From the NCBI RefSeq assembly GCF_000473265.1, contig NZ_KI421511.1, positions 2,703,560 to 2,767,559 of the forward strand: a stretch of 64,000 nucleotides of DNA, given 5' to 3'. Below, one piece after another: positions 3,623 through 48,675 of this stretch. Below the pieces are notes generated by a model. It was not told where the DNA came from. It was given only the letters and a program-made list of their open reading frames with translations, and ran no database searches. The position numbers and the translations under genes are program-made. Within the stretch, counting starts at the first letter, position 1. Each line of letters begins with the position of its first letter. The DNA comes from Amycolatopsis thermoflava N1165. Lineage in GTDB: Bacteria; Actinomycetota; Actinomycetes; Mycobacteriales; Pseudonocardiaceae.

Positions 3623-5551
3623 TCACGCCAGGTGGCGCGACCACCAGTCCAGGATCGCGTCGAAGCGCTGCACCCGGTGGCGCGGTTTGCCGGACCGGCT
3701 CAGTTCGTGGCCCTCGCCGGGGAAGAGCAGCATCTCGACCTCCGTGCCGTTGCGCTTGAGCTCCACGAACAGCCGCTGGGCCTGCTCCACCGGGCACCGC
3801 CAGTCGTGCTCGGAGTGGACCACCGCGAACGGGATGCGGATCTGCGCGGCGTAGGTCAGCGGGCTGCGCTCGCGCTGCACCACCGGGTCCGCGCCGACGT
3901 AGGCCTCGGTGAAGAACCAGCCGATGTCGGAGCTGCCGGTGAACGAGTCCCACGCGTTGACGGCCCGCTCGCTCCACGCGGCGCGGAACCGGGAGCCGTG
4001 GTGGGCCGCCAGCCACGTGGTCATGAAACCGCCGTACGAACCGCCCATCACGCCGACCCGCGAGGAGTCCAGGTCGTCGCGCTCCAGTGCCGCGTCCAGC
4101 AGCGCCAGCACGTCGTCGACGTCGACCGTGCCCAGGCCGTGCACGATCGCCTGCCCGTGGCTCTCGCCGTAGCCGGCCGAACCGCGCGGGTTGCCCATCA
4201 CCACGGCGTATCCGGCCGACGCGTACACCTGCGCCTCGTCGAACAGGCCCCAGTCGTAGGCCGCGAACGGACCGCCGTGCACCACGAGCAGCACCGGGTG
4301 CGGCCCGTCGCCCTCGGGCAGCACCAGCCAGCCGTGCACCGGGTACCCGTCCGGCGCCGTGGCGGTCAGCTCCTCGACCGGGTGGATCCCCTTCTCCCGC
4401 ACCGGCTTGGCGAAGTCGGTGAGCACCAGCTGGTCCGGGCCGTCGAGCAGCACCACGTCACCCGAGCTGTCCGGCCGCGCCACGACCGCGGCGATCCGCT
4501 CACCGTGCACCGTGAACGACCGCACCGCGCCGCGGTCACCGAGCAGCCTGCCCAGGCCGTCCAGCGGCGCCCGGTCGGCGTCCCGCGGCACGGCCCGCAG
4601 CTCGATCGCGCCGCGGTTGAGCACGGTCACCAGGACCTCGTCGCGGAACTGCGCGGGCGGCACGTCGGCCATGCAGTACACGGACTCCGGGTCGGTCAGG
4701 CGGCGCGGCTTCGCCGGCTCGCCGTCGGCGGGCAGCTCGGCCGACCACAGTCCCGGGTTGCGGGCCACGACGTGCGGCCACGTGTACTCCTGGCCGTAGA
4801 AGAAGATCGTCCCGTCCGCGGTCACCGACGGTTTGGCCGCGCTGCCCGCGCTCCGCACCGCGAGCACCGGCTCACCGCCCTCGGCCGGCACCAGGTAGAG
4901 GTCGCTCTCCTCGGTGTCGGTGGCGCCCCACTCGCGGGGCGCGACGACGAGCACGGCCGAGCCGTCCGGCAGCCACGCCGGGTCGGAGACGTCGGCCTGG
5001 TCGTCGGTCAGCGGCTCCGGCTCACCCGGGTCGGTGACGTCGAGGACGAACAGCCGACGGGGGCGGTCCCGCAGGAAGCCGACGTTGTCGAGCCGGTAGT
5101 CGTAGCGGGTGATCCGGCGGGGCGCCTCCGCACCCGGTTCGAGGACTTCGCCGTCCTCGTCCGGCGCGCCGTAACGGCCGGCTTCGGGCACCCGCGCGGT
5201 GAACGCGACGCGGCGCGAGTCCGGCGCCCACACCGGGGCGCCGGCGCCGAGCGGCAGTTCGGTGAGGCGCCGGGCGTCGCCGCCGTCGGCGGGCATCACG
5301 TGCAGCTGCGGCTTGTCGCCGTCCGCGCGGAGGAAGGCCACCCAGCGGCCGTCCGGGGAGATCGCGGGATCGGTGTCCCGCTCGCCGTGGGTCCACTGCC
5401 GGGCCGCCCCGCCGTCGGGGGCGGCCCGCCACAGCGAACTGCGATAGGTGTTGCCGCCGAGGTCGGGGGTGGTGACCGCGGTCAGCAGCAGGGTGCCGTG
5501 CAGCGCCGGAGTGCCGGGCACGGCGAGGAGTTCGAGATCCGAGGGACGCAT
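3623..5551 (-). CDS. S9 family peptidase (prolyl oligopeptidase / acyl-aminoacyl peptidase type)
   Basis: A 642-residue cytosolic serine peptidase. The N-terminal ~390 residues form a WD40-like beta-propeller (repeated SPDGRWVAF, APDSRRVAF, LPDGSAVLV strands) that gates access to the active site. The C-terminal ~250 residues are an alpha/beta hydrolase with nucleophile GGSYGG (about residue 507), Asp in HSEHDWRCP (about 581) and His in GEGHELS (about 613). No signal peptide is seen. A leaderless -10 box (TAGGTT) sits seven bases before the ATG, inside the 3' end of the TerC gene. The exact substrate, peptide or acyl-peptide, cannot be told. Confidence 0.93.
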   Translation of the reverse strand: MRPSDLELLAVPGTPALHGTLLLTAVTTPDLGGNTYRSSLWRAAPDGGAARQWTHGERDTDPAISPDGRWVAFLRADGDKPQLHVMPADGGDARRLTELPLGAGAPVWAPDSRRVAFTARVPEAGRYGAPDEDGEVLEPGAEAPRRITRYDYRLDNVGFLRDRPRRLFVLDVTDPGEPEPLTDDQADVSDPAWLPDGSAVLVVAPREWGATDTEESDLYLVPAEGGEPVLAVRSAGSAAKPSVTADGTIFFYGQEYTWPHVVARNPGLWSAELPADGEPAKPRRLTDPESVYCMADVPPAQFRDEVLVTVLNRGAIELRAVPRDADRAPLDGLGRLLGDRGAVRSFTVHGERIAAVVARPDSSGDVVLLDGPDQLVLTDFAKPVREKGIHPVEELTATAPDGYPVHGWLVLPEGDGPHPVLLVVHGGPFAAYDWGLFDEAQVYASAGYAVVMGNPRGSAGYGESHGQAIVHGLGTVDVDDVLALLDAALERDDLDSSRVGVMGGSYGGFMTTWLAAHHGSRFRAAWSERAVNAWDSFTGSSDIGWFFTEAYVGADPVVQRERSPLTYAAQIRIPFAVVHSEHDWRCPVEQAQRLFVELKRNGTEVEMLLFPGEGHELSRSGKPRHRVQRFDAILDWWSRHLA

Positions 5552-5558
5552 GCCCCCG

Positions 5559-5564
5559 AACCTA
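5559..5564 (-). promoter_or_regulatory. -10 box of a leaderless promoter for the S9 peptidase
   Basis: On the minus strand TAGGTT is followed by exactly seven bases and then the ATG of the S9 peptidase. It overlaps the stop codon of the upstream TerC gene, so the peptidase probably has its own transcript apart from riboswitch control. Confidence 0.5.
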
Positions 5565-6551
5565 CCGGATTTCGTTAGCCTCGCTAAGAGCCTCTGACTC
5601 CGACTTCTTCTCGTCCCGCTTGGCCTTGGCCAGGCTGAGGACGGTGGTGGCGGTCAGGACGACCACGATCACGCCCAGCGACACCCAGTTGTTGATGTCC
5701 AGCCAGTCCGGTACCGCGTGGTACTCGTGCAGCGCGTGCAGGATCAGCTTCGCGCCGATGAAGGCCAGGATGACCGCCAGGCCGTAGGACAGGTAGACCA
5801 GCTTGTTCACCAGGCCGCCGAGCAGGAAGTACAGCTGCCGCAGCCCCATCAGCGCGAACGCGTTGGCGGTGAACACCAGGAAGGCTTCCTGCGTGATGCC
5901 GAAGATCGCCGGGATCGAGTCGACCGCGAAGAGCAGGTCGGCGCTGCCGATGGCCACGATCACCACGAACATCGGGGTCAGCCAGCGCTTGCCGTCCCGC
6001 TTGATCGTCATCTTGTGACCGTGGAAGTCGTCGGTGACCGGGTAGACCTTGCGGATCCACCGCACGACCGCGTTCTCGTGGTACTCGTCCTCGTGGTCGT
6101 TGCCGCGCAGCATGCTGATGGCCGTCCACACGAGGACCGCGCCGAACAGGAAGAACACCCACACGAACTGGGCGATCAGGGCCGCGCCCACCGCGATGAA
6201 CACGCTGCGCATGGCCAGCGCGAGCAGGATGCCGATCAGCAGCACGCGGTGCTGGTGGATCGCGGGCACCCGGAACGAGGCCATGATGATCATGAAGATG
6301 AACAGGTTGTCCACCGAGAGCGAGTACTCGGTGATGTACCCGGTGAAGAACTGGACGCCGTAGTCGTGCCCGGCGAGGACCCACACGCCGATGCCGAACA
6401 GCACCGCGCAGGTGACGTAGAAGACGACCCACTTGGCCGCTTCCTTGGTGGTGACTTCATGCGGCTTCCGGTCGACGATCACGAGATCGATCGCGATCAG
6501 CACGAGCAGGCCTGCAACAGTGGCAGCCCACAGCCACACGGGGACATTCAT
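5562..6551 (-). CDS. TerC family integral membrane protein (probable Mn2+ exporter)
   Basis: A 329-residue polytopic membrane protein with about eight to nine hydrophobic segments. The two TerC/Alx signature acidic motifs are present: EYSLSVDNLFIF in one helix and ADLLFAVDSIPAI in another. A charged cytosolic loop lies between them (about residues 145-185) and the tail is rich in Lys and Glu. Members of this family export manganese or help metalate exoenzymes. The gene is preceded by a yybP-ykoY-type riboswitch, which independently supports a manganese role. GGAGGT lies nine bases before the ATG and can be hidden by pairing with the riboswitch 3' strand. Confidence 0.93.
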   Translation of the reverse strand: MNVPVWLWAATVAGLLVLIAIDLVIVDRKPHEVTTKEAAKWVVFYVTCAVLFGIGVWVLAGHDYGVQFFTGYITEYSLSVDNLFIFMIIMASFRVPAIHQHRVLLIGILLALAMRSVFIAVGAALIAQFVWVFFLFGAVLVWTAISMLRGNDHEDEYHENAVVRWIRKVYPVTDDFHGHKMTIKRDGKRWLTPMFVVIVAIGSADLLFAVDSIPAIFGITQEAFLVFTANAFALMGLRQLYFLLGGLVNKLVYLSYGLAVILAFIGAKLILHALHEYHAVPDWLDINNWVSLGVIVVVLTATTVLSLAKAKRDEKKSESEALSEANEIR

Positions 6552-6560
6552 CTACGCAAT

Positions 6561-6690
6561 ACCTCCGGTTAGCGCGCAGCAGCAGCTAGCCGGAGGTCTC
6601 TTCCGCCGGTGGAACCGGCCGACGGTGCCGGGTGCCCCGAAGGACCGCCGTGCTGACGACACCGCCGCGAAGGAATACTCCCCTCCACGT
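6561..6690 (-). ncRNA. yybP-ykoY (Mn2+) riboswitch with ribosome-site sequestration
   Basis: In the minus-strand leader of the TerC gene the 5' element GGAGGGGAGTA (GGAGG at 6682-6686) matches the conserved first strand of the yybP-ykoY aptamer. CGTCAGCAC follows in the middle, and GAGACCTCC (near 6592-6600) closes the P1 helix GGAGG/CCTCC. The closing strand ACCTCCGG (6590-6597) is also exactly complementary to CCGGAGGT (6561-6568), which contains the TerC ribosome site. The simplest model is a translational ON switch: Mn2+ stabilises P1 and frees the ribosome site. The metal is inferred from the known class. Confidence 0.8.
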
Positions 6691-6809
6691 CGTATCCATC
6701 TTTCCTGATCAACCGGACGAACACCACCTTAGGTAACCCTCATCACCCGGATTCCAAGATCAGGACCCGCGCTGACGCGTTCTCAGGAAAGCTCCCATAC
6801 GGTTTCGGT

Positions 6810-9648
6810 GTGCCCCGAATCCCGCTCCCGCACACGCGCCGTTCCCGGATGGTGGCCCTCGGGGTCGTCGTCCTGCTGGTGGCGGCCGCCGTGCTCGTCT
6901 GGACGCGCTCGTCGAGCGAGCCCGCCGCGGTGCCGACGCAGGACGCCTTCCTCGACGTGCCCGCCGCGCCCGGCTCCGCCGCGAAGGTCACGCTGGACAC
7001 CACGCTCTACCTGCCGGAGCGCACGCCCGCCCCGGCGGTGCTGCTGCCGCACGGGTTCGGCGGGGACAAGAACAGCGTCGCGGGCGACGCGCAGGAGCTG
7101 GCCCGGCGCGGGTTCGTGGTGCTCACCTACTCGGCGCGCGGCTTCGGCCGCAGCACGGGTGAGATCGGGCTGAACGACCCGGACTTCGAGGTCGCGGACG
7201 CCGCCCGGCTGCTCGACTGGCTCGCCACCCGCCCGGAAGTCCGGCTGGACGGTCCCGGCGATCCGCGGGTCGGCGTGCTGGGCGCCTCCTACGGCGGCGC
7301 GCTGGCGCTGCAGCTGGCCGGACGCGACAAGCGGGTCGACGCGATCACGCCGGTGATCACCTACAACGACCTGGCCCAGGGGCTCACGCCGAACGCGGCC
7401 GCGGCGACGGCGCCGGCGGCAGGCACCCCGGCGGCGGGCGCGTTCTCCCCGGACGGGGTGTTCAAGAAGTCGTGGGCAGGCTTGCTCTTCTCCGCCGGGA
7501 CCTCGCCCTCGGGCGCGGGCGGGCTGGGCGCGGAGGCGCCCGAGCCGGGCCAGGAGACCGACGACGACACCCAGAGCGCCGGCACCACGGGCGGTGGCGG
7601 CTCGGCCGCCGCCGCGCCGCTCCCCCAGCAGCCGCCGCAGCAGCTCGGCGGGACGACGTGCGGCCGCTTCACCGCCGAGATCTGCCGGGCCTACGCCGAC
7701 CTGGCCACCACCGGCGAGGTGAGCCCGCAGGTCGCGGCCCTGCTGCAGCGCCTGTCCCCCGCCGCGGTCACCGGGCACATCACCGCGCCGACCCTGCTGG
7801 TGCAGGGCGAGGCCGACACGCTGTTCGGGCTCGACCAGTCCGACGCCACCGCGCGGCAGATCACCGCGGCGGGCGGGACGGTGCAGCAGGTCTGGTTCAC
7901 CGGCGGGCACGACGGCGGACGGCCGGGCCCGCAGCTGCGCGCGAAGCTCGGCGACTGGTTGTGGTTCCAGCTCACCGGCGAGGGCGGCAACCCGTTCAGC
8001 GGGTTCTCCTACGACGTGCAGGGCTCGCTGCGCGCGTCGGGTTCGCCCTCGGTGCGCACCGTCGACGCGGGCGAGTACCCGGCGCAGGCGCAGCGGCGGA
8101 CGCTGCGGCTCACCGGCGACGAGCAGACGATCGTCAACCCGCCCGGCGGCACGCCCGCCGCGGTCAGCGGGATCCCCGGCCTGAACGCGCTGGTCAGCGG
8201 ATCGTCGCGGCTGTCGGGGCTGTTCAGCGTCGACCCGCCCGGCCAGTCCGCGCGGTTCACCACCGCGCCCGTCGACTCGCAGCTGCTGATCACCGGCTCG
8301 TCGACCGTCCGGCTGCGCGTGTCCGGCACCGGCGAGGCGGTGCTGTTCGTCAAGCTCTACGACCTCAACCCGGACGGCACCCGCACGTTGCCGGCGAACC
8401 AGATCGCCCCGGTGCGGGTCGCGATCCCGGCGTCCGGCACCGCCGAGGTGACCGTGACGCTGCCCGGGGTGGTGCGGCCGGTCGAGGCCGGGCACGCCCT
8501 GCAGCTCGTGGTCACGACCACCGACCAGGCGTACGCCACCCCGGTGACCCCGGCCGCCTACCGCGTCTCGCTCGCCGACCCGGCCATCGCGGTGCCGGTC
8601 GTGCCGGGCAACGCCGTCGGTGGCGGGTGGCCGGTCGGCACGCTCGTCGGAATCGCCGTCACGCTCGCGCTCGCCGCGGCGGTCGCCGCGCTGGCCGCGG
8701 TGCGCAGGCGGCGGTCGCACCAGGCCGATCCGGACCTTGCCGGGGTGCCGCTGGTGATCGACGGGCTGACCAAGGCCTACCCGGGCGGGCTCACCGCGGT
8801 GAAGGACCTGTCCTTCCGCGTCGAACCGGGCCAGGTGCTCGGCCTGCTCGGGCCGAACGGCGCCGGCAAGACCACGACGCTGCGCATGCTGATGGGCCTG
8901 ATCACCCCGACCGCCGGGGAGATCAGGGTGTTCGGCCACCGGATCACGCCGGGCGCGCCGGTGCTGTCGCGGATCGGCTCGTTCGTCGAGGGCTCCGGGT
9001 TCCTGCCGCATCTGTCCGGCACCGCGAACCTGCGCCTGTACTGGGACGCGACCGGCCGCCCGATCGAGCAGGCGCACCTGGAGCAGGCGCTGGAGATCGC
9101 GGGGCTGGGCAACGCCGTGCACCGCAAGGTCCGCACCTACAGCCAGGGCATGCGGCAGCGGCTGGCGATCGCGCAGGCCATGCTCGGGCTGCCGGAGCTG
9201 CTCGTGCTCGACGAACCGACCAACGGGCTCGACCCCGCCGCAGATCCACCAGATGCGCGAGGTTCTGCAGCGGTACGCCGCGACCGGCCGGACCGTGGTG
9301 GTATCCAGCCACCTGCTGGCCGAGGTCGAGCAGACCTGCACGCACGTCGTGGTGATGCACCGCGGCCGGCTGGTGGCCGCGGGCGAGGTCGGCGACATCG
9401 TGGCCGCCGGCGGCGAGGCCACCTTCCGGGTGGACCGGCCCGAGGCGGCGGCCGACGCCCTGCGCGGGGTGCCCGGCGTGTCCGGTGTGGACGTCGAAGG
9501 GACCCTCGTGCACGCCGACCTGGACGGCATGCCGCGCGCCGAGGCGGTCGCGGCGCTGGTCCGGGCCGGGGTCGCGGTCGAGCAGGCCGGGCCGCGGCGG
9601 CGGCTGGAGGACGCGTTCCTCCAGCTCGTGGGAGAGGAAACGTCATGA
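6810..9648 (+). CDS. S15/CocE-type hydrolase fused to ABC transporter ATPase, frameshifted as read
   Basis: The reading frame encodes a membrane-anchored fusion of about 946 residues. A signal anchor (about residues 14-31) precedes an X-Pro dipeptidyl-peptidase/CocE-like alpha/beta hydrolase with nucleophile GASYGG (Ser160), Asp in GEADTLF and His in GGHDGG. A Gly/Pro/Ala-rich insert, a beta-rich C-terminal domain and a second hydrophobic segment (about 610-630) follow. Then comes an ABC ATPase with GPNGAGKTT, YSQGMRQR and LVLDEPTNGLDP. An extra C in the run 9233-9236 breaks the frame right after Walker B; the natural frame resumes as QIHQMREVL and runs to TGA 9648, including the H-loop VVVSSHLL. 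It is coupled (ATGA) to the permease. Confidence 0.82.
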
Positions 9649-10571
9649 GCGAGAACGGGGTCCACACCGATCCCGCGGCACTGGACGAGCTGACCGACGC
9701 CGCCGCGCACACCCACTCCGGGGTGGGCGCGGACGGCGCGGTCGAGGGCTACCGGGCGCGGCGGACGCTGCGGCTGGGCGTCGAACTGCGGCGTCAGCTG
9801 CGGCGCCGGCGCACCCAGCTGGTGCTCGGGTTCGTCGTGCTGCTGCCGTTCATCCTGGTGGTGGCGTTCGAGATCGGCGAGTCCAGCCCGAACCGGCGCT
9901 CCGGCGGGTTCGTCGACCTGGCGACGGCGAGCGCGCCGAACTTCGTCGTGCTGGCGCTGTTCGTGTCCGGGACGTTCCTGCTGCCCACGATCGTCGCGTT
10001 GTTCTTCGGGGACACGATCGCGAGCGAGGCGTCCTGGTCGAGCCTGAAGTACCTGCTGGCGATGCCGGTGCCGCGGCACCGGCTGCTGCGGCAGAAGGCG
10101 ATCGCGTCCGGCTTGCTGTCGGTGGTGGCGCTCGTGCTGCTGCCGCTGGTGGCCCTGGTGGCGGGACTGATCTTCTACGGCGCAGGGGACGCGGTCAGCC
10201 CCACCGGCGACGCGATCCCGTTCGGGCAGAGCCTGATCGCGATCGGGCTGTCCACGGTGTACGTGGTGATCCAGCTGGCGTGGGTGGCCGGGCTGGCGCT
10301 GTTGCTGTCGGTGCTCACCGACGCGCCGCTGGGGGCGGTCGGCGGGGCGGTGCTGGCGGCGATCCTGTCGCAGATCCTCGACCAGATCACCGCGCTGGGC
10401 ACGCTGCGCAACTACCTGCCGACGCACTACTCGTACGGCTGGATGGACCTGATCGCCACCGACATCGACTGGACGAACATGGCCGCCGGGACGCTGTCCG
10501 CGGTGATCTACGCGACCGTGTTCACGTTGCTGGCCGCGCGGCGCTTCGCGACCAAGGACATCACCAGCTGA
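9645..10571 (+). CDS. ABC transporter permease (ABC-2 type) partner of the hydrolase-ATPase fusion
   Basis: A 308-residue permease. An Ala/His-containing cytosolic N-terminus of about 45 residues is followed by six hydrophobic segments (for example LVLGFVVLLPFILVVAF and LLSVVALVLLPLVALVAG) and a short basic tail, as in ABC-2 export permeases. The ATG overlaps the TGA of the ATPase by four bases. Because of the upstream +1 frame error, the shifted frame reads straight into this gene and an automated caller may report one 1253-residue chimera; the overlapping start and the normal start of homologous permeases argue for separate genes. The transported substrate is unknown. Confidence 0.85.
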   Translation: MSENGVHTDPAALDELTDAAAHTHSGVGADGAVEGYRARRTLRLGVELRRQLRRRRTQLVLGFVVLLPFILVVAFEIGESSPNRRSGGFVDLATASAPNFVVLALFVSGTFLLPTIVALFFGDTIASEASWSSLKYLLAMPVPRHRLLRQKAIASGLLSVVALVLLPLVALVAGLIFYGAGDAVSPTGDAIPFGQSLIAIGLSTVYVVIQLAWVAGLALLLSVLTDAPLGAVGGAVLAAILSQILDQITALGTLRNYLPTHYSYGWMDLIATDIDWTNMAAGTLSAVIYATVFTLLAARRFATKDITS

Positions 10572-10578
10572 CGTGCCC

Positions 10579-10584
10579 TACGGT
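10579..10584 (+). promoter_or_regulatory. -10 box of a leaderless promoter for the enoyl-CoA hydratase gene
   Basis: TACGGT is followed by six bases (GGGGCC) and the ATG at 10591, the same geometry as at several other genes in this window. It supports 10591 over the upstream in-frame ATG-like start at 10573. Confidence 0.5.
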
Positions 10585-10590
10585 GGGGCC

Positions 10591-11349
10591 ATGACGACGA
10601 TCGAGGTGGACAAGGCCGGCGACGTCGCCGTGCTGAAACTGGCCCACGGCAAGGCGAACGCGATGGACACCGAGCTGTGCCGGGAGCTGGTGGCACGGCT
10701 GGAGGAGGCCGAGCTCGGCGGCGCGAAGGGCGTGGTGCTGACCGGGCGGGACGGGATGTTCTCCGCCGGCGTCGACCTCAAGCGGGTCGCCGCGGGCCGG
10801 GCCGGTTACCTCCGGGAGTTCCTGCCCGCGCTGTCGGACGCGTTCCTGGCCGTGTTCGGGTTCCCCGGCCCGGTCGTCGCGGCGGTCACCGGGCACGCGA
10901 TCGCCGGCGGGGCGGTGCTGGCGGCGGCGTGCGACCGGCGGATCCTGAACGAGCGGCAGGGCCGGTTCGGGGTCACCGAACTGCTCGTCGGGGTGCCGTT
11001 CCCGTTGGTGGCGCTGGAGATCCTGCGCTGCGCGTACGGGACGGAGCGGCTGCCCGGGCTGACGTTCCTCGGCGAGACCTACGCCGGCCGCGAAGCGCTT
11101 TCCCGCGGTCTGGTGGACGAGCTGGCCGCGCCGGCGGAGGTGCTGCCGAGGGCGATCGAGACGGCGACGAGGCTGGCTTCGGTGCCGTCGGACGCGTTCC
11201 GGCACACGAAGGCGCAGATCCACCGGCCGTTCGACGAGCGGATCGGCGAGCAGCGCGCAGGGGACGACGCGCACGTCGAGCGGGTGTGGTCGGCGCCGTC
11301 CTCGCTGGCGGCGATCGAGGAGTACGTGCGGACCACGCTCGGCGGGTAG
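10591..11349 (+). CDS. enoyl-CoA hydratase/isomerase (crotonase) family protein
   Basis: A 252-residue crotonase-fold protein acting on acyl-CoA thioesters. The CoA-binding/oxyanion segments are visible: ANAMDTEL, FSAGVDLKRV (about residue 58) and the second oxyanion loop TGHAIAGGAVLAAACD (about residue 100). The usual catalytic Glu pair of true hydratases is not obvious: the region corresponding to the second Glu reads RFGVTELLVGVPFP, so hydratase versus isomerase activity is open. It stands alone behind its own leaderless promoter and is followed by a VOC protein gene. Confidence 0.88.
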   Translation: MTTIEVDKAGDVAVLKLAHGKANAMDTELCRELVARLEEAELGGAKGVVLTGRDGMFSAGVDLKRVAAGRAGYLREFLPALSDAFLAVFGFPGPVVAAVTGHAIAGGAVLAAACDRRILNERQGRFGVTELLVGVPFPLVALEILRCAYGTERLPGLTFLGETYAGREALSRGLVDELAAPAEVLPRAIETATRLASVPSDAFRHTKAQIHRPFDERIGEQRAGDDAHVERVWSAPSSLAAIEEYVRTTLGG

Positions 11350-11388
11350 CATTCTCGGTTCCCCGCCCACCGCCTCCCGGAGGCCGCC

Positions 11389-11769
11389 ATGCCGCGTCCG
11401 GTGCACTTCGAGATCCACGCGAGCGACCCGGAACGAGCCGTCACCTTCTACGCGACGGTCTTCGGGTGGACGTTCGAGCGGTGGGGCAGCAACCCGTACT
11501 GGCTGATCAGCACCGGCGACGGCCCGGGCATCGACGGTGGGCTGGTGCCGCGGCAGGGCCCCGCGCCCACCGAGGACGCGCCGGTGAACGCCTTCCCGCT
11601 GACCGTCGAGGTGGACGACCTCGACGCGGCCGTGCGGCGGGTCGAACAGGCGGGCGGTCAGGTCGCGGTGCCGCGGAGCCCGATCCCGGGGATCGGGTGG
11701 CTCGCGTACTGCGTGGACACCGAGGGAAACATCTTCGGGATGCTGGAGCCGGCCCCGGAAGCCGAGTGA
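11389..11769 (+). CDS. VOC family protein (glyoxalase/bleomycin-resistance fold)
   Basis: A 126-residue vicinal-oxygen-chelate protein with two beta-alpha-beta-beta-beta modules: PVHFEIHASDPERAVTFY ... FGWTFERWG, and FPLTVEVDDLDAAVRRVE ... GWLAYCVDTEGNIFGMLEP. The possible metal ligands are the early His (HFEIHA) and the late Glu (GMLEPA). Proteins of this size act as isomerases, dioxygenase-like enzymes or antibiotic-binding proteins; nothing here distinguishes them. GGAGG lies six bases before the ATG. The 28-bp tandem array begins about 60 bases after its stop. Confidence 0.87.
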   Translation: MPRPVHFEIHASDPERAVTFYATVFGWTFERWGSNPYWLISTGDGPGIDGGLVPRQGPAPTEDAPVNAFPLTVEVDDLDAAVRRVEQAGGQVAVPRSPIPGIGWLAYCVDTEGNIFGMLEPAPEAE

Positions 11770-11825
11770 TGGTGGGGCGGGGCTGTAGGCCGGATGGAGC
11801 CGGTACAGGCTGCTGGAGGTAGAGG

Positions 11826-12240
11826 TCGAGGGGCGCCGCTGCGGCGGCGGGGTTGCGTGATGCCGCTGCGGCGACGGGGGTCGAGTGATGCCGCTGCCGC
11901 AGCGGGGGTCGGATGATGCCGCTGCGGCGGCGAGGGTCGAGTCATGCCGCTGCCCCGGCAGGGGTCGAGTCATGCCGCTGCCCCGGCAGGGGTCGAGTCA
12001 TGCCGCTGCCCCGGCAGGGGTCGAGTGATGCCGCTGCCGCAGCGGAGGTCGAGTGATGCCGCTGCCGCGGCAGGGCTCGGGCGATGCCGCTGCCGCGCCG
12101 GGGATGGTGATGCCGGTGCGGCGGCAGGGGTCGAGTGATGCCGCTGCGGCGGCGGGGATCGTGATGCCGGTGCGGCGGCAGGGGTCGAGTGATGCCGCTG
12201 CGGCGGCGGGGTTGGGTGATGCCGCTGCGAAGCGGGTCGG
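11826..12240. repeat. 28-bp tandem repeat array, about 14 copies
   Basis: The block ATGCCGCTGC (or ATGCCGGTGC) recurs at 11860, 11888, 11916, 11944, 11972, 12000, 12028, 12056, 12084, 12110, 12138, 12164, 12192 and 12219. The period is 28 bases, with a few 26- to 27-base units. Three consecutive units around 11944-12027 are identical. The unit carries a GGGGTCGAGT lead and a GC-palindromic core able to fold. Twenty-eight is not a multiple of three and no ribosome site fits, so it looks non-coding. It fills the intergenic space between the VOC gene and the convergent MmcQ-type gene. Confidence 0.9.
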
Positions 12241-12437
12241 TTCGGTGCTGGGGCGGGTGGATGCGAAGCGCCGCGGGTGGTGAGCCTGGCCTGAGGCTCA
12301 CACCGCTGGGGCGGGTGGCGCCTGCCCGCGAGCGGCGAACCGCGGTGCCGTGCCCAAGGTGGCGCGGCAAGTTCGAGCGCAGGAAGCTTGGTTCGGCGGG
12401 CGGGCTCCGATGGAGTCACCGCGAGGGTGCTGCCGGG

Positions 12438-12758
12438 TCAGGAGCGGGCGTGGTCGTAGGACGCGGCCAGCAGTTCGTGCAGTTCGGCGTCAGGGATGGC
12501 GCTGTCCAAGGTGATCGTGTTCCAGCCGTGGCGGGACTGGTAGCCCATGGGCCGCACGGCGTCCGGGTGGCGGGCCCGCACGGTGGCGGCCTCCTCGGCG
12601 TTGACGCCGCACCGGAGGGCGATCGAGTTCTCCTCGAAGCCGATGTAGGCGAACGCCTTGCCCGTGACCTTCACGACGAGCACGTGCTCACCGAACGGAT
12701 AGGTCTCCACGGCGCCCGGCTGCGCCAGGCACCAGGCGATCACCTCGTCGCGGGTCAA
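12438..12758 (-). CDS. MmcQ/YjbR family DNA-binding protein
   Basis: A 106-residue protein of the YjbR fold (CyaY-like). It opens LTRDEVIAWCLAQPGAVETYPFG, continues with VLVVKVTGKAFAYIG and EENSIALRCG, and ends with the conserved YQSRHGWNTITLD and ELHELLAASYDHARS helix. The start is a TTG at 12758, chosen because AAGGAG lies six bases ahead and homologues begin here. The open frame continues upstream only through non-coding repeats. It is flanked on both sides by tandem arrays. Members bind DNA; the physiological role is not established. Confidence 0.85.
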   Translation of the reverse strand: MTRDEVIAWCLAQPGAVETYPFGEHVLVVKVTGKAFAYIGFEENSIALRCGVNAEEAATVRARHPDAVRPMGYQSRHGWNTITLDSAIPDAELHELLAASYDHARS

Positions 12759-12839
12759 CGGCCGCTCCTTCCATCCGGGTCGCTGAGCTCCGGCATCCCG
12801 GCGCCCAGTCACTCCCCGCAGCCAGGCCGGTGACCGGCC

Positions 12840-40425: not shown

Positions 40426-41547
40426 TCACCGGCTCAGCCGCCGCACCGCGATCCCGGCGCCGAGGATCAGCACCAGCACGGTGAACGACCACCCGCGCTT
40501 CTCCTCGGTCCGCTCCTGTGTGGACACCTGCGCCACCGGCTTCTTCGTGGTCACCGGACGACGCTTGGTGGTGGACGGCGGTGGCGGCGGGACCGTCGGC
40601 GGCGCCGGGCGCGGCGTGGTCACCGGTCGCGGCGGCGGGTCCGGCACCGAAGGAGGCGGCGGCGCGGGCACGAGCGGAGCCACTGCCGGAGGTGGTGGGG
40701 GCGGCGGCGGAGCAGGAGGTGGCGGCGGCGGGGGCGGCAGCGGGGGCGCCCGCAGGCACCCGGCACTGTCCGAACCGGACAGCGGCGCCCCGGCGGACAC
40801 CTCGGTGACCGGCTCGGAGCCGTCCCGGGCGACCCGGAACGTGCGGCTGCGGCCGGCGCTGCGGTTCGCCGTGACGTACAGCGTCTCCCCCGCCAGCACG
40901 ACCGAGCCGTACGCGGTCGCCGGCGGCAGCACCGGCCCGGGAACCGGGTGCGTCCACCCCGACACCGGGTCGATCCGCACGACCCGCCCGCTGAACGGGA
41001 ACGTGCTCGTCACCCCGTAGAGCGCGCCCCCGGCGAAGTCGAAGTCGTCGATGCCGGACGTGAACGGCGCAGGCCACAGGCCGACACCGCGCACCGCCGA
41101 GAGGTACCCGTCACCGCCCGGGTCGATGTCGATCACGTACAGGTCGTCGTCCCGCAGGACGTACCAGCGGTCGCCGAACACCGCGCCCGCGGTGGCCCGG
41201 TCCAGCCCGCGGCGGTCCGTCGTCCGCACCGGGCCGAGCCGGGTCAGCTCGCCGTCCCGGCCCACGGCCACCGCCGTGCCGTCGCGGGTCAGGCCGTACA
41301 CCCGGTCCTGGGCGCGCGCGTAGCCGAGGGCGTTGACCTGCACGCCGAGCGCGGTCCGGCTCTCCACCGCCCCGGACGGCATCCGCACCAGCTCCACAGT
41401 GGACGGTCCGCCCGGAGCCGTGTTGACGACCCGCAGGACCGTGCAGGCGGTGGCGGGGGCCGCCCCGGCGGCCGGCGTGACCGGCAGCAGCGACGCCGCC
41501 AGGACGCCCGCGGCCGCCAGCGCCCGGGCCGGGCGCCGCACCCTCAC
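40426..41547 (-). CDS. secreted/anchored beta-propeller protein with proline-rich linker
   Basis: A 373-residue envelope protein of unknown function. A signal peptide (ALAAAGVLAASLLPVTPAAGA) is followed by about 225 residues of WD/NHL-like strands (LGYARAQDRVYGLTRDG, VFGDRWYVLRDDDLYVID, FDFAGGALYGVTS). A very proline-rich stretch of about 60 residues comes next, then a basic region and a C-terminal membrane helix (WSFTVLVLILGAGIAV) ending RRLSR. The layout suggests a propeller held away from the membrane across the wall. GTG start overlaps the stop of the upstream DUF4239 gene by four bases (GTGA). Confidence 0.8.
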   Translation of the reverse strand: MRVRRPARALAAAGVLAASLLPVTPAAGAAPATACTVLRVVNTAPGGPSTVELVRMPSGAVESRTALGVQVNALGYARAQDRVYGLTRDGTAVAVGRDGELTRLGPVRTTDRRGLDRATAGAVFGDRWYVLRDDDLYVIDIDPGGDGYLSAVRGVGLWPAPFTSGIDDFDFAGGALYGVTSTFPFSGRVVRIDPVSGWTHPVPGPVLPPATAYGSVVLAGETLYVTANRSAGRSRTFRVARDGSEPVTEVSAGAPLSGSDSAGCLRAPPLPPPPPPPPAPPPPPPPPAVAPLVPAPPPPSVPDPPPRPVTTPRPAPPTVPPPPPSTTKRRPVTTKKPVAQVSTQERTEEKRGWSFTVLVLILGAGIAVRRLSR

Positions 41548-42311
41548 CGCAGCCGCTCGATCGCCTGGCTGAACGCGTCCGGGCCCACCTTCGACCCGCC
41601 CGCGAACGGGTTCTGCATCTGGAAGATCGCGAAGAGCAGCAGGGTCGTCGCCGCGGCGAGGGTGGACACGATCACGACGTGGGTGAGCGACTTCGTGCCG
41701 CCGAACAGGTTGGGCAGCAGCACGAAGATCACGCTCCCACCGATCAGCACGAACCACACCACCATGCCGACGTTGTTGTCCTGCACCGCGTTGAGCCGGG
41801 CCTGCCGTTCCTTGAACACGTCCAGCAGCGAGTCGGCGACCTCGGTCTTGCGGCTGGTCAGCCAGTCGTCGTCGCCGGGCACGTCGGCGGTGTCCACCAC
41901 CGCGCGCATCCGGTCCAGCTGGTCCCAGCCCTCCTCGGGCAGCACGCCGCCGTCCCGCATGCGCGGCCACTCGCGGTTCACCACCGTGTCCGCGTAGCCC
42001 GCGGCCAGCTCGCGGATCTCCGTGCGTGCCGGCTCGGGCAGCGCGTCGGCCGCCCACGAGGCGGCGACCAGGCTCTGCGACTCCTCGTAGGAGGAGTCCC
42101 GCACGGTGCTCGCCGCGTCGAACAGCGAGATCAGCACGAACGCGATCACCGCGGCGTGCAGGCCGCCGACGATGGTGAACGCCTGGCCGGCCGCGTCGTT
42201 GTTGTCCGGCCTGCCCTCGTCCAGACCGTAACGGCGGACCAGGTAAGCGATGAGCGCACCGAGCCCGACGGCGCCCACCACCCACAGCGAACCGGCCACG
42301 TAGACATTCAT
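41544..42311 (-). CDS. DUF4239 domain membrane protein
   Basis: A 255-residue protein with two N-terminal hydrophobic segments (VAGSLWVVGAVGLGALIAYL; AFTIVGGLHAAVIAFVLISL), a helical loop of about 120 residues, and two C-terminal ones (VVWFVLIGGSVIFVLLPNLF; HVVIVSTLAAATTLLLFAIF). This is the bestrophin-like DUF4239 layout. The start at 42311 has GGGAGG upstream; the earlier in-frame ATG has none. It is coupled to the propeller protein gene, suggesting a shared membrane complex, which is inference only. Confidence 0.85.
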   Translation of the reverse strand: MNVYVAGSLWVVGAVGLGALIAYLVRRYGLDEGRPDNNDAAGQAFTIVGGLHAAVIAFVLISLFDAASTVRDSSYEESQSLVAASWAADALPEPARTEIRELAAGYADTVVNREWPRMRDGGVLPEEGWDQLDRMRAVVDTADVPGDDDWLTSRKTEVADSLLDVFKERQARLNAVQDNNVGMVVWFVLIGGSVIFVLLPNLFGGTKSLTHVVIVSTLAAATTLLLFAIFQMQNPFAGGSKVGPDAFSQAIERLR

Positions 42312-42956: not shown

Positions 42957-44372
42957 GTGACTGTGACCGATCCCGCCGTGCCCGCCCTGGACAGCGGCAG
43001 CCAGCAGCAGAGCCTGAGCACCCGGGCCGCGCGGAACCTGGCGACCACGACCAAGTCCGTCCCGCAGATGCAGGCCATCACGTCGCGGTGGCTGTTGCGC
43101 CTGCTGCCCTGGGTGGAGGCCTCCGGCGGCGCCTACCGGGTCAACCGGCGGCTGTCCTATGCGGTCGGCGACGGGCGCGTGACGTTCGTGACGACCGCGG
43201 GGAACATCGAGGTCATCCCCGCCGAGCTTGGTGAGCTGCCGATCCTGCGCGGCTTCGACGACCAGGAGGTGCTCGCCGCGCTCGCGAGCCGGTTCGAGCA
43301 GCGCGAGTACGAGCCCGGCGACGTGATCGTCGAGTTCGGCAGCGCCTCCGACCAGGCCTTCCTCATCGCGCACGGCAAGGTCAGCAAGGTCGGCCCCGGC
43401 GAGTACGGCGACTTCACCAACCTCGGCGTGCTGGCCAACGGCGACCACTTCGGCGACGACTCGCTGCTGGACGACTCGAGCATCTGGGAGTACACGGTCA
43501 AGGCCGTCACCTCCTGCACGGTGCTGGTGCTCGAACAGCGCGGCTTCGACGAGCTGGTCGAGCAGTCCGCGGCGCTGCGCGAGCAGATCGAGCTGTTCCG
43601 CGCCCGGAAACTGTCCAGTGGCAACGAATACGGCGAGGCCAGCATCGAGCTGTCCTCCGGGCACGAAGGCGAGCCGGAGCTGCCCGGCACGTTCGTCGAC
43701 TACGAGATGTCTCCGCGCGAGTACGAGCTGAGCGTCGCCCAGACCGTCCTGCGCGTGCACAGCCGCGTCGCCGACCTCTACAACCAGCCGATGAACCAGA
43801 CCGAACAGCAGCTGCGGCTGACCATCGAGGCGCTGCGCGAGCGGCAGGAGTCCGAACTGCTGAACAACAAGGACTTCGGCCTGCTCCACAACGCCGACGT
43901 CAAGCAACGCCTGCACACCCGCACCGGCCCGCCGACGCCGGACGACATGGACGAGCTGCTCGGCGCGGTGTGGAAGGAGCCGGCGTTCTTCCTGGCGCAC
44001 CCGAAGACGATCGCGGCGTTCGGGCGCGAGTGCAACACGCGCGGGATCTACCCGGCCGGCGTGGAGTTCAACGGGCATCACGTGCCGTCCTGGCGCGGCG
44101 TGCCGATCCTGCCGTCGAACAAGATCCCGGTGTCGGAGACCCGCACCAGCTCGATCCTGCTGATGCGCGTCGGCGAGCAGAACCAGGGCGTGATCGGCCT
44201 GCACCAGACCGGTCTGCCGGACGAGGTCGAGCCCGGCCTGTCGGTGCGGTTCATGGGCATCAACGAGAAGGCGATCATCTCCTACCTGGTGTCGGCGTAC
44301 TTCTCGGCGGCCGTGCTGGTGCCGGACGCGCTGGCGGTGCTGGAGAAGGTGGAGATCGGCCGCGAGAGCTGA
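42957..44372 (+). CDS. family 2B encapsulin nanocompartment shell protein, copy 1
   Basis: A 471-residue HK97-fold shell subunit. After an N-terminal arm ([20 protein letters not shown]) a Crp-like cyclic-nucleotide-binding domain is inserted (about residues 80-200: [38 protein letters not shown]). The HK97 core follows: [99 protein letters not shown]. The inserted domain defines family 2B. The phosphate cassette lacks the usual Arg (reads WEYTV). GTG 42957 is preferred, with GGGTGG eight bases ahead. The second shell gene follows after 40 bases. Confidence 0.93.
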
Positions 44373-44412
44373 CCCGCGGAAGCCACGAGCGAACGAGGGG
44401 TGGTTGGGTCCG

Positions 44413-45810
44413 TTGACCGTAACCCTGCAGACCTTCCAGCACACCGAAACCCGGCTGAGCCTGGGCACGGCGGCGGCCCGCAAACTGGCCAGCACCACCA
44501 AGTCCGTGCCGCAGAACCAGGCGGTCACCAGCCGGTGGCTGCTGAGCCTGCTGCCGTGGGAGGAGACCGAAGCGGGCACCTACCGGGTCAACCGTCGGCT
44601 GACGTGCGTCGCCGGGCAGGGCCGGGTGGCGTTCACCGTCGAGGCGGGCCGCGTCCGGGTGGTGCCGGCCAGCCTGGCCGAACTGCCGTTGTTCCGCGGT
44701 TTCGGCGACCAGCTCGTCCTGACCGCGCTGGCCGACCGGTTCGAGCAGCGCGAGTACCGGGCCGGGGAAACGATCGTCACCGCGGGCGCGCCGACCGGCG
44801 AGGCGCTGCTCGTCGCGCACGGCAAGGTGACCAAGGTCGGCCGCGGCGACTACGGCGACCCGGTGACGCTCGGGGTGCTCGCCGACGGCGACTACCTCGG
44901 GCAGCAGGTGCTCGCCGAGTCGCCGGAGCGGTGGGCGTACGGCGTCCGGGCGGAGACGCCGGTGACCGTGCTCGCCCTGCCGCAGCGGGAAGTGCTGGCT
45001 TTGCTGGACACCTCCCCGGAGCTTCGGTCGCATGTGGACGGGCTGCGGCGGAGTTCGCAGCTGGCGCAGAACAAGCACGGCGAGGCGAACATCGAGCTGG
45101 CGTCCGGGCACACCGGCGAACCCGCGCTGCCGGCCACGTTCGTCGACTACGACCTCAGCCCCCGCGAGTACGAACTCGGGGTGGCGCAGACGGTCCTGCG
45201 GGTGCACACCCGCGTGGCCGACCTCTACAACCAGCCGATGGACCAGACGCAGCAGCAGTTGCGGGTGACGCTGGAGGCGCTGCGCGAGCGGCAGGAGTCC
45301 GAGCTGCTCAACAACGCCGAGTTCGGCTTGCTCAACAACGTCGATCTCAGCCAGCGCCTGCACACCCGCACCGGGCCGCCCACCCCGGACGACCTGGACG
45401 AGCTGTTGTGCCGCCGCCGCAAGACGAAGCTGTTCCTGGCGCACCCCAAGGCGATCGCGGCGTTCGGGCGGCAGTGCTCGGCGCGCGGGATCGCGACGGA
45501 GCGCACCGAAGTGGACGGTCATGTGGTGTCCACCTGGCGCGGGGTGCCGATCTTTCCCAGCGACAAGATCCCGGTGTCGCGGACCGGGACGACGTCGATC
45601 CTCGCGATGCGGACCGGTGTGGACAGCCAGGGCGTGATCGGGCTGCGCCAGACCGGGCTGCCGGACGAGGTCGAGCCCGGCGTGACCGTGCGGTTCATGG
45701 GGATCGACCCGCGCGCCATCGTGTCCTACCTCGTCACGGCGTACTTCTCGGTCGCGGTGCTGGTGCCGGACGCGCTGGGCGTGCTCGAGCACGTGGAGGT
45801 CGGACGGTGA
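44413..45810 (+). CDS. family 2B encapsulin nanocompartment shell protein, copy 2
   Basis: A 465-residue paralogue of the preceding shell. The N-arm ([18 protein letters not shown]) and HK97 core are very similar ([57 protein letters not shown]), but the cyclic-nucleotide-like domain (about 75-195) has diverged: its cassette is [20 protein letters not shown] and again lacks the ligand-binding Arg. Two unlike subunits suggest a mixed two-component shell. Start uncertain: TTG 44413 aligns with copy 1; TTG 44404 is the alternative. Its stop overlaps the cargo gene start. Confidence 0.92.
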
Positions 45811-46838
45811 CGGAGACGGTGGCCGGGGCACGGACGGCGCGGGACCTCCTGGCGTGGAGCCGCGGATGCGTGGACCCGGCGTTGCGGGCGGCGGTGGCGC
45901 GGCTGCCGGAGTCGATGCGGCCGCTGGTCGCCTACCACTTCGGGTGGGCGGACGAGACGGGCGCGCCGGCGAGCGGGGGCGGCGGCAAGGCGGTGCGGCC
46001 GGCGCTGGTGCTGGCGGCGGCGCGGGCGGTCGGCGAGTGGGGGCCGGCGCTGCCCGGCGCGGTCGCCGTCGAGCTGGTGCACAACTTCTCGCTGCTGCAC
46101 GACGACGTCATGGACGGCGACGAGACGCGGCGGCACCGGCCGACGGTGTGGAAGCTGTTCGGCCCGGGGCCGGCGATCCTGGCCGGGGACAGCCTGCTGG
46201 TCGCGGCGTCGGACGTGCTGGCGGCGAGCGGTCACCCGGCGGCGCGGGAGGCGTTGCGGATGCTCGGTGCGGCGGTGCAGGACCTGATCGAGGGCCAGGG
46301 CGCGGACCTGGCGTTCGAGCAGCGTGCCGACGTCGGGCTGGACGAGTGCCGTCTGATGGCGGAGGGCAAGACCGGGGCGGTGCTGGGGTGCGCGTGCGCG
46401 CTGGGCGGGTTGCTCGGCGGCGGCTCGTCCGAGCAGGTCGCGCACCTGCGGCGGTTCGGGGAGGCGGCCGGGCTGGCGTTCCAGATGGTCGACGACCTGC
46501 TCGGGATCTGGGGCGACCCGGCGGCGACCGGGAAGCCGGTGTTCTCGGACCTGCGCAACCGGAAGAAGTCGCTGCCGGTGGTGGCGGCGCTGACGTCGGG
46601 GACCGAGGCAGGCCGGGAGCTGGCGTCGCTGTACGCGGCACCGGGTGAGCCGGCCGGGGTGGACCTGGTGCGGGCCGCGCGGCTGGTCGACCAGGCCGGT
46701 GGCCGGGAGTGGACCCGCACCGAGGCGGCGGCGCTGCTGGAGCGGGCTCGGGAGCACCTGAAAGCCGCGGTGCCGGACCCGCGAGGCGCCGCGGAGCTGG
46801 AGGCGCTGGCGGCGCTGCTCGCGGACCGGGACAGATAA
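45807..46838 (+). CDS. polyprenyl diphosphate synthase, probable family 2 encapsulin cargo
   Basis: A 343-residue trans-prenyltransferase that elongates allylic diphosphates with isopentenyl diphosphate. The first Asp-rich motif is HDDVMDGD (DDxxD at 99-103) and the second is [10 protein letters not shown] (229-237), with [12 protein letters not shown] and [12 protein letters not shown] around them. Polyprenyl transferases are a recognised cargo class of family 2 encapsulins. The GTG overlaps the stop of shell copy 2 by four bases (GTGA). The N-terminus before the catalytic core is short (about 60 residues, with [11 protein letters not shown] and a small GASGGGG linker) rather than a long disordered tail, so the loading signal is not obvious. 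Product chain length is unknown. Confidence 0.92.
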
Positions 46839-47247
46839 CCGGCGGCGGTGGCCGGAATCGGCGGCGCGCCGGCGGGCCGCGTCCCGGGCACCCGTGAAGC
46901 GGGCCGCGCCCGGGCCGAACACTGGCCGGGCGCGGCCATCCCTGCAGGCGAACTTCGCGGGGTGGGAAGGGCCGCCAGGCCGGGACCGGCCGCCCAATCA
47001 AGGGCGGGCCCGCTGCACTCGGCCGCGTGGTGCCACGCCCGCAGAGCGGGCGGCATGGCCAAGGCCGGCCCGCAGCGTGAGGCGGGACCCGGCACCGCAT
47101 CGGGCAGGCCGGTTCCACCCCACGGCGCGGGCCGCCATCCGCAGAGCCTGGCCACCCGCCAGAACCCACCCCGCAGAGCGGGGTCACCCCCGAGGCCCTC
47201 GCCGGCAGAGCGCACAGCACGCATCCCACCTGGAACGGGAGAAAACC
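46839..47247. other. 409-base spacer with GCAGAGC hairpins before ispH
   Basis: No convincing gene. Two perfect hairpins share the loop AGA: CGCCCGC/GCGGGCG at 47036-47052 and CCCCGC/GCGGGG at 47069-47083 plus 100 (that is, 47169-47183). GCAGAG also recurs near 47141 and 47206. An open frame from GTG 46894 runs in phase into ispH but has no ribosome site and an Arg/Pro-rich, low-complexity translation, so it was not added to ispH. Confidence 0.5.
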
Positions 47248-48525
47248 ATGTCGTTCACCGCAGCGCAGAGCATCCTCGCCGCGCATCATCCGGGCCGGCC
47301 GGCTCCCGGGGAGGTCCTCGTCGCCGACGAGTTGCTCTGGGCGGACCGCCCGTCGGTCCGCTGTCCCGGCGCGGGGCTGCTCGAAGGCGAGCTCCGGCGC
47401 CGCGGGATCGCCACCGCCCGCGGGCCCCTCTACGTCGACACCGACCACGCCGCCGCGGTCGCCCTGCGTGCCGTGCTCCCCGCGGCCCGCGGGCCGGCCG
47501 GGCTGGGCGTCGCCGCCACCGGGCAGGCCTCCTCCACACTCGCGGCCGCCGTGAGCGCCGCGATGGCCTCGGTGCTCGCCGTCGCCGGGCGGCCCCGCTC
47601 GGTGCTGCTCGCCGCGCCGCGATCGTTCTGCGCGGGCGTCGAACGGGCCATCGAGATCGTCGAACGCCTCCTCGCCCAGCGCGGCGGTCCGATCTATGTG
47701 CGCAAGGAGATCGTGCACAACCGCCACGTCGTCGGCGACCTCCGCGCGCGGGGCGCGGTGTTCGTCGACGAACTGGACGCCGTGCCGCGGGGAGGGACCG
47801 TCGTGTTCTCCGCGCATGGCGTCTCCCCCGCCGTGCGCGCCGAGGCGGACCGCCGCCGTCTCAAGGTCGTCGACGCCACCTGCCCACTCGTCACCAAGGT
47901 GCACGCCGAGGCGCGCCGCTTCGCCGGGCAGGGCGACACCGTCCTGCTGATCGGGCACGCCGGGCACGAGGAGGTCGAGGGCACCCTCGGCGAGGCGCCC
48001 GAGCGGACCGTGCTCGTGCAGTCGGTCGAGGAGGCCCGCCGGGTGCGGGTGCCGGACCCGGACCGCGTCACCTACCTGACCCAGACCACTCTCAGCGTCG
48101 ACGAGACCGCCGACGTGCTCGCCGAGCTGCGACGGCGCTTCCCCGCGTTGCGCGGCCCGGCCTCCGATGACATCTGCTACGCCACCACCAACCGGCAGGA
48201 CGCGCTGCGCTCGGTCGCCAGGGACAGCGACCTGGTGCTGGTGGTGGGGTCGCGGAACTCGTCGAACTCGCTGCGCCTCGTCGAACTCGCCGAGCGGGCG
48301 GGCACGCCGGCCCACCTGATCGACGACGCGCGGGACGTGCGGCCCGAATGGCTGTCCGGGGTGGAGCGGATCGGGCTCACCGCGGGCGCGTCGGCGCCGC
48401 CGGGGCTGGTCGACTCCGTGGTCGCCGCGCTCGGCGGCCTCGGCCCGCTCACCGTCGGCGAACGGGAGACCACCCGCGAGACCATCCACTTCACGCTGCC
48501 GACGGCCGTGCGGAGGAAGCCTTGA
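47248..48525 (+). CDS. ispH: 4-hydroxy-3-methylbut-2-enyl diphosphate reductase with N-terminal extension
   Basis: Last enzyme of the MEP pathway: reduces HMBPP to IPP and DMAPP with a [4Fe-4S] cluster. The 425-residue protein has the three cluster Cys at 128 ([10 protein letters not shown]), 212 ([11 protein letters not shown]) and 310 ([11 protein letters not shown]), substrate His in [19 protein letters not shown] and [11 protein letters not shown], and the [10 protein letters not shown] segment. Ordinary IspH begins just before the first Cys; here about 117 extra residues precede it (opening [16 protein letters not shown]), whose family I cannot name. GGGAG lies before the ATG. With the prenyl synthase upstream it would feed IPP/DMAPP locally. 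Confidence 0.93.
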
Positions 48526-48675
48526 CCGCGGTGCCGCTGGGCATGCCGCAGGTGCCCGCGCCGCGCCGGAACTCCCGTCAGGTGATGGTCGGCGACGTGC
48601 CCGTCGGCGGCGGTGCGCCGGTGCCGGATCGTGGAGACGCTGCTGGAGGTGGCGCTCGAGCGGTTCCCCGGATGA
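48522..48675 (+). pseudogene. ispG: ispG remnant: N- and C-terminal ends only
   Basis: Directly after ispH, with a GGAGGAAG site, TTG 48522 opens [19 protein letters not shown] then VMVGDVPVGGGAPV, the well-known start of actinobacterial IspG (HMBPP synthase). Instead of continuing, the DNA jumps at about 48620 to CGG ATC GTG in another frame, giving RIVETLLEVALERFPG and TGA (48673-48675), which matches the IspG C-terminus (IVETLIEEA-type). Roughly 330 internal codons, including all catalytic and Fe-S Cys, are missing. The gene cannot work. The TTG overlaps the ispH stop, so ispH-ispG was once an intact operon. Confidence 0.8.

Follow-up and report, generated by a model that had tools for sequence, protein, structure and literature searches.

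A predicted two-component family 2B encapsulin operon with a prenyl synthase and a reduced isoprenoid supply cassette in Amycolatopsis thermoflava N1165

Background

Encapsulins are virus-derived protein shells of a known kind, and two-component family 2B operons that include a polyprenyl diphosphate synthase (PT) were described as a class in 2021. In this report, we describe a predicted operon of this PT type at positions 42957 to 48675 of a 64,000-nucleotide stretch of the Amycolatopsis thermoflava N1165 genome (the whole stretch is called the window). Two shell genes, enc1 and enc2, are followed there by genes for PT and for the isoprenoid enzyme IspH, and by a remnant of ispG.

A polyprenyl diphosphate synthase is the commonest neighbor of family 2b shells (PMC8049743). 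Operons of the PT type number 900 in one survey, often with linked genes for precursor biosynthesis, and their PT cargo class carries 50-100 disordered N-terminal residues without a shared tag (PMC8346489). Two-component operons, of which 503 have been reported, are represented experimentally by the Streptomyces lydicus pair Sl-Enc1/Sl-Enc2, characterized in 2025. Sl-Enc1 forms no shells by itself, and the two proteins co-assemble into mixed shells that vary in composition and are tiled irregularly (PMC12407261).

The locus in the window resembles the S. lydicus pair in having two shells with inserts related to cyclic nucleotide monophosphate (cNMP)-binding domains in the order Enc1-Enc2, and its diagnostic motif 1 reads AVWK/RRRK, compared with TVWK/RRRK in S. 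lydicus. The two differ in the linked enzyme, which in the window is a prenyl synthase, followed by ispH, whereas S. lydicus has an operon of the xylulose-kinase type (PMC12407261). Like described PT-type operons, the window combines shells, PT, and an isoprenoid precursor gene, but its PT appears to have no long N-terminal extension, and its precursor genes are reduced to ispH (PMC8346489).

Results and discussion

The genes of the operon

Enc1 (42957..44372, plus strand, GTG start, 471 amino acids) and Enc2 (44413..45810, plus strand, TTG start, 465 amino acids) match the family 2B model NF041163 with 779 and 723 bits (cut-off 400), and in both the HK97-type shell domain is that of SrpI and other family 2 proteins (PF19307, E 9.7e-140 and 1.3e-133, respectively). 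The insert that marks family 2B is present in each: residues 116-203 of Enc1 (43302..43565, plus strand) and 113-200 of Enc2 (44749..45012, plus strand) match the cNMP-binding-like domain PF00027 with E 1.9e-15 and 3.4e-13. In a pairwise comparison, the two proteins are 72% identical in the HK97 core and 49% identical in the inserts. Both have close sequence matches in the PDB (9bje, 9bix, and 9bhu), and a search of the 8.69-Mb genome with Enc1 found these two shell genes only. Because the genes adjoin, carry the two versions of motif 1, and fall into separate clades (see below), the pair has the marks of a two-component system.

The start of the PT gene (45807..46838, plus strand, GTG start, 343 amino acids; PF00348, E 1.7e-55) overlaps enc2 by exactly 4 bases (45807-45810). 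PT is assigned to the presumed cargo class by its position beside the shells and by its score of 468 bits (cut-off 450) against NF041169, the model for "family 2 encapsulin cargo polyprenyl transferase". Residues D99, D100, D103, D229, and D230 are the same in all of 29 homologues, the second motif is DDLLG, and the nearest PDB sequence is 3nf2, a putative polyprenyl synthetase. Slight indications point to a C15-C20 prenyl diphosphate as the probable product: the next NCBIfam model after the cargo model is that of the geranylgeranyl diphosphate synthase IdsB, which PT matches below its cut-off, and chain length is also related, as a rule, to the residue five positions ahead of the first Asp motif.

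The HMBPP (4-hydroxy-3-methylbut-2-enyl diphosphate) reductase IspH (47248..48525, plus strand, 425 amino acids; PF02401, E 4e-94; TIGR00216, 311 bits) has a LytB/IspH catalytic domain from about residue 115. All 15 aligned sequences keep its three cluster-binding cysteines, C128, C212, and C310. The ispH gene is followed on the same strand by an ispG remnant of 0.15 kb (about 48522..48675), recognized by alignment to the intact ispG of a relative.

These results bear out most of the original prediction made from the DNA letters: two family 2B shell genes of 471 and 465 residues, a PT gene in a 4-base overlap with the second of them, a PT of the expected family 2 cargo class, and ispH with an ispG remnant following on the PT strand. 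Of its description of the shells, the similar HK97 cores stand, whereas inserted domains of different kinds do not. On this gene content, the locus is classified as a two-component, PT-type family 2B encapsulin operon.

The window is collinear, at 90.5-92.4% DNA identity, with its nearest relative, locus L130 (genome G113), whose sequence is contained in a locus of Amycolatopsis thermalba (L020). Relative to L130, ratios of nonsynonymous to synonymous substitution rates (dN/dS, NG86) are 0.127 for Enc1, 0.188 for Enc2, 0.403 for PT, and 0.126 for IspH; the operon genes are under purifying selection, and conservation of the locus goes beyond chance.

Two types of shell protein in relatives

We assigned shell types by motif 1, in which xWK denotes Enc1-type and RRRK denotes Enc2-type shells (PMC12407261). 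In two-shell loci, xWK occurs in 77 of 78 first shells, and RRRK, in 77 of 78 second shells; the one exception in both counts is locus L028, in which the gene order is swapped. In a tree of Pseudonocardiaceae shells, 39 first and 39 second shells separate with support of 100/98. This split upholds the earlier view that the duplicated shells are more than redundancy. The defined two-component capsid proposed along with it fares worse, in that the characterized S. lydicus pair yields irregular mixed shells of variable composition (PMC12407261).

Among 44 loci with a single shell gene, 43 are Enc2-type (41 RRRK-like, two with MRR). The sole Enc1-type case, L168, belongs to a genome (G085) that has a shell pair elsewhere. 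Because 42 of these 44 loci stem from the Enc2 query, 20 further single-shell loci, hand-chosen among those listed, were taken from the Enc1 query, and all 20 are Enc2-type. Since 63 of the 64 single-shell loci examined thus carry the Enc2-type motif, Enc1 looks like an obligate partner of Enc2, although a partner shell could be overlooked in those loci of both sets that stop at contig ends. We found no statement of this bias in the available portions of the papers cited here.

Linkage of shells, PT, and IspH

Among 120 Pseudonocardiaceae genomes, 73 match the family 2B model above its cut-off. Loci were clustered from 150 listed shell matches, the 65 highest-scoring IspH rows listed, and 102 of the PT rows listed, with lower-scoring rows set aside, and the counts in this paragraph apply among these listed matches. 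Absences are upper bounds, for genome G112 lies outside the shell matches listed, yet its locus L172 has a shell pair together with PT and IspH. Clustering gave 81 shell loci in 71 genomes and 28 genera, including 63 loci with two shells and PT (61 genomes, 23 genera). IspH lies directly behind PT in 29 of these 63 (11 genera), which supports ispH as a recurrent operon partner. All 29 have the order Enc-Enc-PT-IspH on one strand, with matches 8-75 bp apart in 20 of them. Six loci have one shell and PT, two of these with IspH, and 12 shell loci are without PT, none of them with IspH. The original prediction was to be refuted by relatives whose shells lack a linked PT or ispH, and such loci occur: ispH is lacking in at most 50, and PT in at most 12, of the 81 loci.

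A second sample, with named organisms, comprised the best 80 loci of at least 583 relatives from the Enc2 search. PT is present in 39 of these by tblastn (38 by gene calls), leaving 41 others. IspH occurs in 17 loci, all with PT; DXS or IspG occurs in four PT loci, and a DXS match, in one locus without PT.

A probable supply cassette that also occurs without shells

In relatives, the fuller arrangement is Enc1-Enc2-PT-IspH-DXS-IspG. We scanned for PT, IspH, DXS, and IspG in 43 fetched family loci with shells, a non-random set that favors IspH-linked loci. IspH is present in 30 of the 43, together with both DXS and IspG in 10; DXS without IspG occurs in four loci, and IspG without DXS, in one. 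At PT-type shell loci, DXS and IspG never appear unless IspH is present too, either in the 43 fetched family loci or in the 39 named loci with PT. In L143, L147, L149, L150, and L151, no further gene is called between PT, IspH, DXS, and IspG.

The same enzyme set also occurs without a shell gene in the fetched stretches of L169, L170, L171, L173, L176, L179, and L180, in some of which a further called gene intervenes, and L178 and L181 have IspH-DXS-IspG without PT. Because the PT-IspH-DXS-IspG block also occurs without shells, IspH goes with the prenyl synthase more closely than with the shell, and for the same reason it most likely works outside the shell, where it would raise the supply of isopentenyl and dimethylallyl diphosphate (IPP/DMAPP). 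The original prediction had suggested a compartment with a dedicated IspH that takes in HMBPP or IPP/DMAPP. Against IspH as part of such a compartment stand the shell-free cassettes, the 34 of 63 two-shell PT loci in which IspH was unseen among the matches listed, and a search for a loading tag on IspH, which found none. A literature search on encapsulins and IspH found matter that, by its listing, concerns bacterial microcompartments.

The window holds a reduced copy of this cassette, with no dxs and most of ispG deleted. L130 has an intact 365-amino-acid IspG behind IspH, from which the window lacks an internal segment of about 0.94 kb; at the deletion junction, the two matches overlap by 17 bp. 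The PT-ispH spacer (46839..47247) is also longer, at 409 nt compared with 179 nt in L130. It is single-copy in the genome, which speaks against a mobile repeat. Within it, a perfect inverted repeat (46902-46937), with arms of 12 bp around a 12-nt loop, is a possible attenuator or terminator, with no T-run. A consensus scan gave no promoter in the spacer and a single terminator-like site, which lies on the opposite strand.

The N-terminal extension of IspH

The first 114 residues of IspH (47248..47589, plus strand) precede the catalytic domain and by themselves match no Pfam family. In hhalign, 16 hand-picked IspH extensions aligned with the second half of six HpnG (nucleoside phosphorylase) domains from hopanoid HpnG-IspH fusions with a probability of 94.8% (E 5.5e-8), so by homology, we read the extension as a decayed HpnG domain. 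Many shell-linked IspHs are without it, their start codons lying 3-17 residues ahead of the core. Conversely, it occurs in the shell-free IspHs of L014, L169, and L171 and more weakly in those of L177 and L180; that of L175 is seemingly non-homologous. An encapsulation tag was considered and rejected, because the extension is HpnG-derived, is found in only part of the linked copies, and is also found in shell-free ones. Similarly, an encapsulin-specific IspH lineage is unsupported: in a 68-row tree, the 46 linked rows need eight label changes, compared with a mean of 18.7 after shuffling, and are interspersed with shell-free rows from terpene clusters. Row L170_2989 is an extreme long branch in this tree.

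The genome itself holds four IspH, one IspG, and five polyprenyl-synthase-family matches, and the IspH of L016 is its best-scoring match to the IspH family. One IspH (L013; G000:C1:220000-238000, 4307-12471) is an HpnG-IspH fusion between shc and hpnH in a hopanoid cluster (hpnC-D-E, PT, shc, the fusion, and hpnH) that, unlike the window, has no shells. Its PT is 53%, and its IspH core 62%, identical to that of the window. Its HpnG domain, to which the extension of the window IspH is homologous, is still recognizable (PF01048), whereas the extension has decayed. Another IspH (L014; G000:C1:2427000-2445000, 9301-12791) lies beside a terpene-synthase-like gene in a shell-free locus with a partial PT on the other strand.

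A bestrophin-like neighbor

Divergent from enc1, a gene for a 255-amino-acid bestrophin-like membrane protein (41544..42311, minus strand; PF14023, E 1.8e-40; four hydrophobic segments) is a possible partner of the system. In fetched flanks, relatives of it occur at nine of 39 PT-type and none of 41 other named shell loci, in three families, as counts uncorrected for kinship and genome size. Five of the nine (L033, L058, L084, L092, and L095) are, by organism name, in Glycomycetaceae or Micromonosporaceae, at 29-34% identity. Homologues of at least 220 bits occur in 56 of the 120 family genomes, all of them in the set of 72 shell-positive genomes, in which G112 was included manually. For 20 of these copies, a listed shell gene is no more than 10 kb away, and for 36 it is farther, in a shell listing that misses some (L172, G112). 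Among 296 genomes across the class, the two close homologues are both of the window's family. Among weaker homologues, those of G135 and G280 are 64 and 107 kb from their shells, and G098, for instance, also has one.

The bestrophin-like gene ends the same-strand block in L149-L151. In L190-L192 (genus g16), it adjoins PT in 14-kb stretches that gave no shell match, and comparison with L168, from the same genus and with a lone Enc1-type shell, looks like shell loss. A literature search found nothing joining encapsulins with bestrophin, and the papers listed for DUF4239 are, by title, unrelated; the available portion of PMC8346489, on PT-type operons, makes no mention of such a neighbor that we could find. 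Behind the bestrophin-like gene lies another (40426-41547, minus strand), relatives of which accompany it in L020, L023, L038, L129, L130, L138, L139, L158, and L168.

Proposed roles and alternatives

We lean, somewhat more than evenly, toward a reading in which an Enc2 shell with Enc1 as partner encloses PT, and IspH is a cytosolic supply enzyme. It builds on the observed gene content, Enc1/Enc2 identity, family membership, purifying selection, and recurrence in relatives. Enc2 would form the shell, and Enc1 would enter mixed shells; IPP and an allylic diphosphate would pass through pores to the enclosed PT; and IspH, as what remains of a transferable PT-IspH-DXS-IspG cassette in a strain without dxs there and with most of the linked ispG lost, would raise the IPP/DMAPP supply from the cytosol. 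The product, probably a C15-C20 prenyl diphosphate, would be used elsewhere, because no terpene cyclase is recognized near the operon. Several points weigh against this reading. The long spacer and its strong inverted repeat make co-transcription of ispH with PT doubtful in the window, and constraint on PT is the weakest among the operon genes. PT has no long N-terminal extension compared with the shell-free hopanoid PT of the same genome: 44-57 residues precede its main Pfam match, about seven more than in that enzyme. Its SAREVLAWSR-like N-terminal motif is unsupported as a loading peptide, given related motifs in unlinked PTs. These N-terminal features of PT would suit real shells with an unenclosed synthase in the cytosol, supplying some other component inside or on the surface of the shell, as would close PTs with no shell gene nearby (for example, L190-L192, L197, L200, and L201). 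This alternative, the most probable of those weighed, we still consider unlikely, because PT matches the NF041169 cargo model above its cut-off and, among the matches listed, immediately follows the last shell at most two-shell loci.

A membrane-coupled module, with the bestrophin-like protein as a functional partner of PT and encapsulin, is rather improbable. Its distribution among named loci (nine of 39 versus none of 41, in three families), the occurrence of its close family homologues in shell-positive genomes (56 of 56), its place at the close of the block in L149-L151, and purifying selection on it (dN/dS 0.178 relative to L130) speak for such a role. However, for most copies in the family the closest listed shell gene is over 10 kb away, weaker homologues such as those of G135 and G280 are farther still, the two class-wide hits in this family limit the claim, and the link may be to PT only, because the gene adjoins PT where no shell was found. 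An elaborate version, in which Enc1 is an obligate accessory that tunes the Enc2 shell (for example, its two-fold pores via an N-arm), co-inherited IspH-DXS-IspG floods the system with C5 units, and the bestrophin-like protein links the membrane with the product or with the diphosphate of that product, is likewise improbable and speculative. The model of the original prediction, with IspH in the compartment, HMBPP or IPP/DMAPP imported, and chain growth inside a defined capsid, is very unlikely. The frequent same-strand position of IspH at two-shell PT loci, and its absence from the 12 listed shell loci without PT, favor it. However, the cassette of IspH and its HpnG-derived extension also occur without shells, shell-locus IspHs are not one clade, and the known pair builds irregular mixed shells (PMC12407261). 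IspH also needs an iron-sulfur cluster and a reductant partner. A defined capsid and an HMBPP-importing compartment exceed the evidence. Least probable of all is a decaying locus without function: the ispG deletion, missing dxs, enlarged spacer, and dN/dS of 0.403 for PT hint at decay, but the four frames are intact, with dN/dS of 0.126-0.403 at this distance from L130, and the genome has another IspG. The preferred reading remains a shell of Enc2 and Enc1 enclosing PT.

Conclusions

The operon is an encapsulin system of known kind, and comparison with relatives gives new, testable hints on why two shells are retained. One two-shell system has been characterized (PMC12407261), and the predominance of Enc2-type single-shell loci makes the idea that Enc1 is an obligate modifier of the Enc2 shell directly testable. 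The nested IspH/DXS/IspG cassette and the bestrophin-like neighbor provide named genes with which the role of PT-type encapsulins may be probed.

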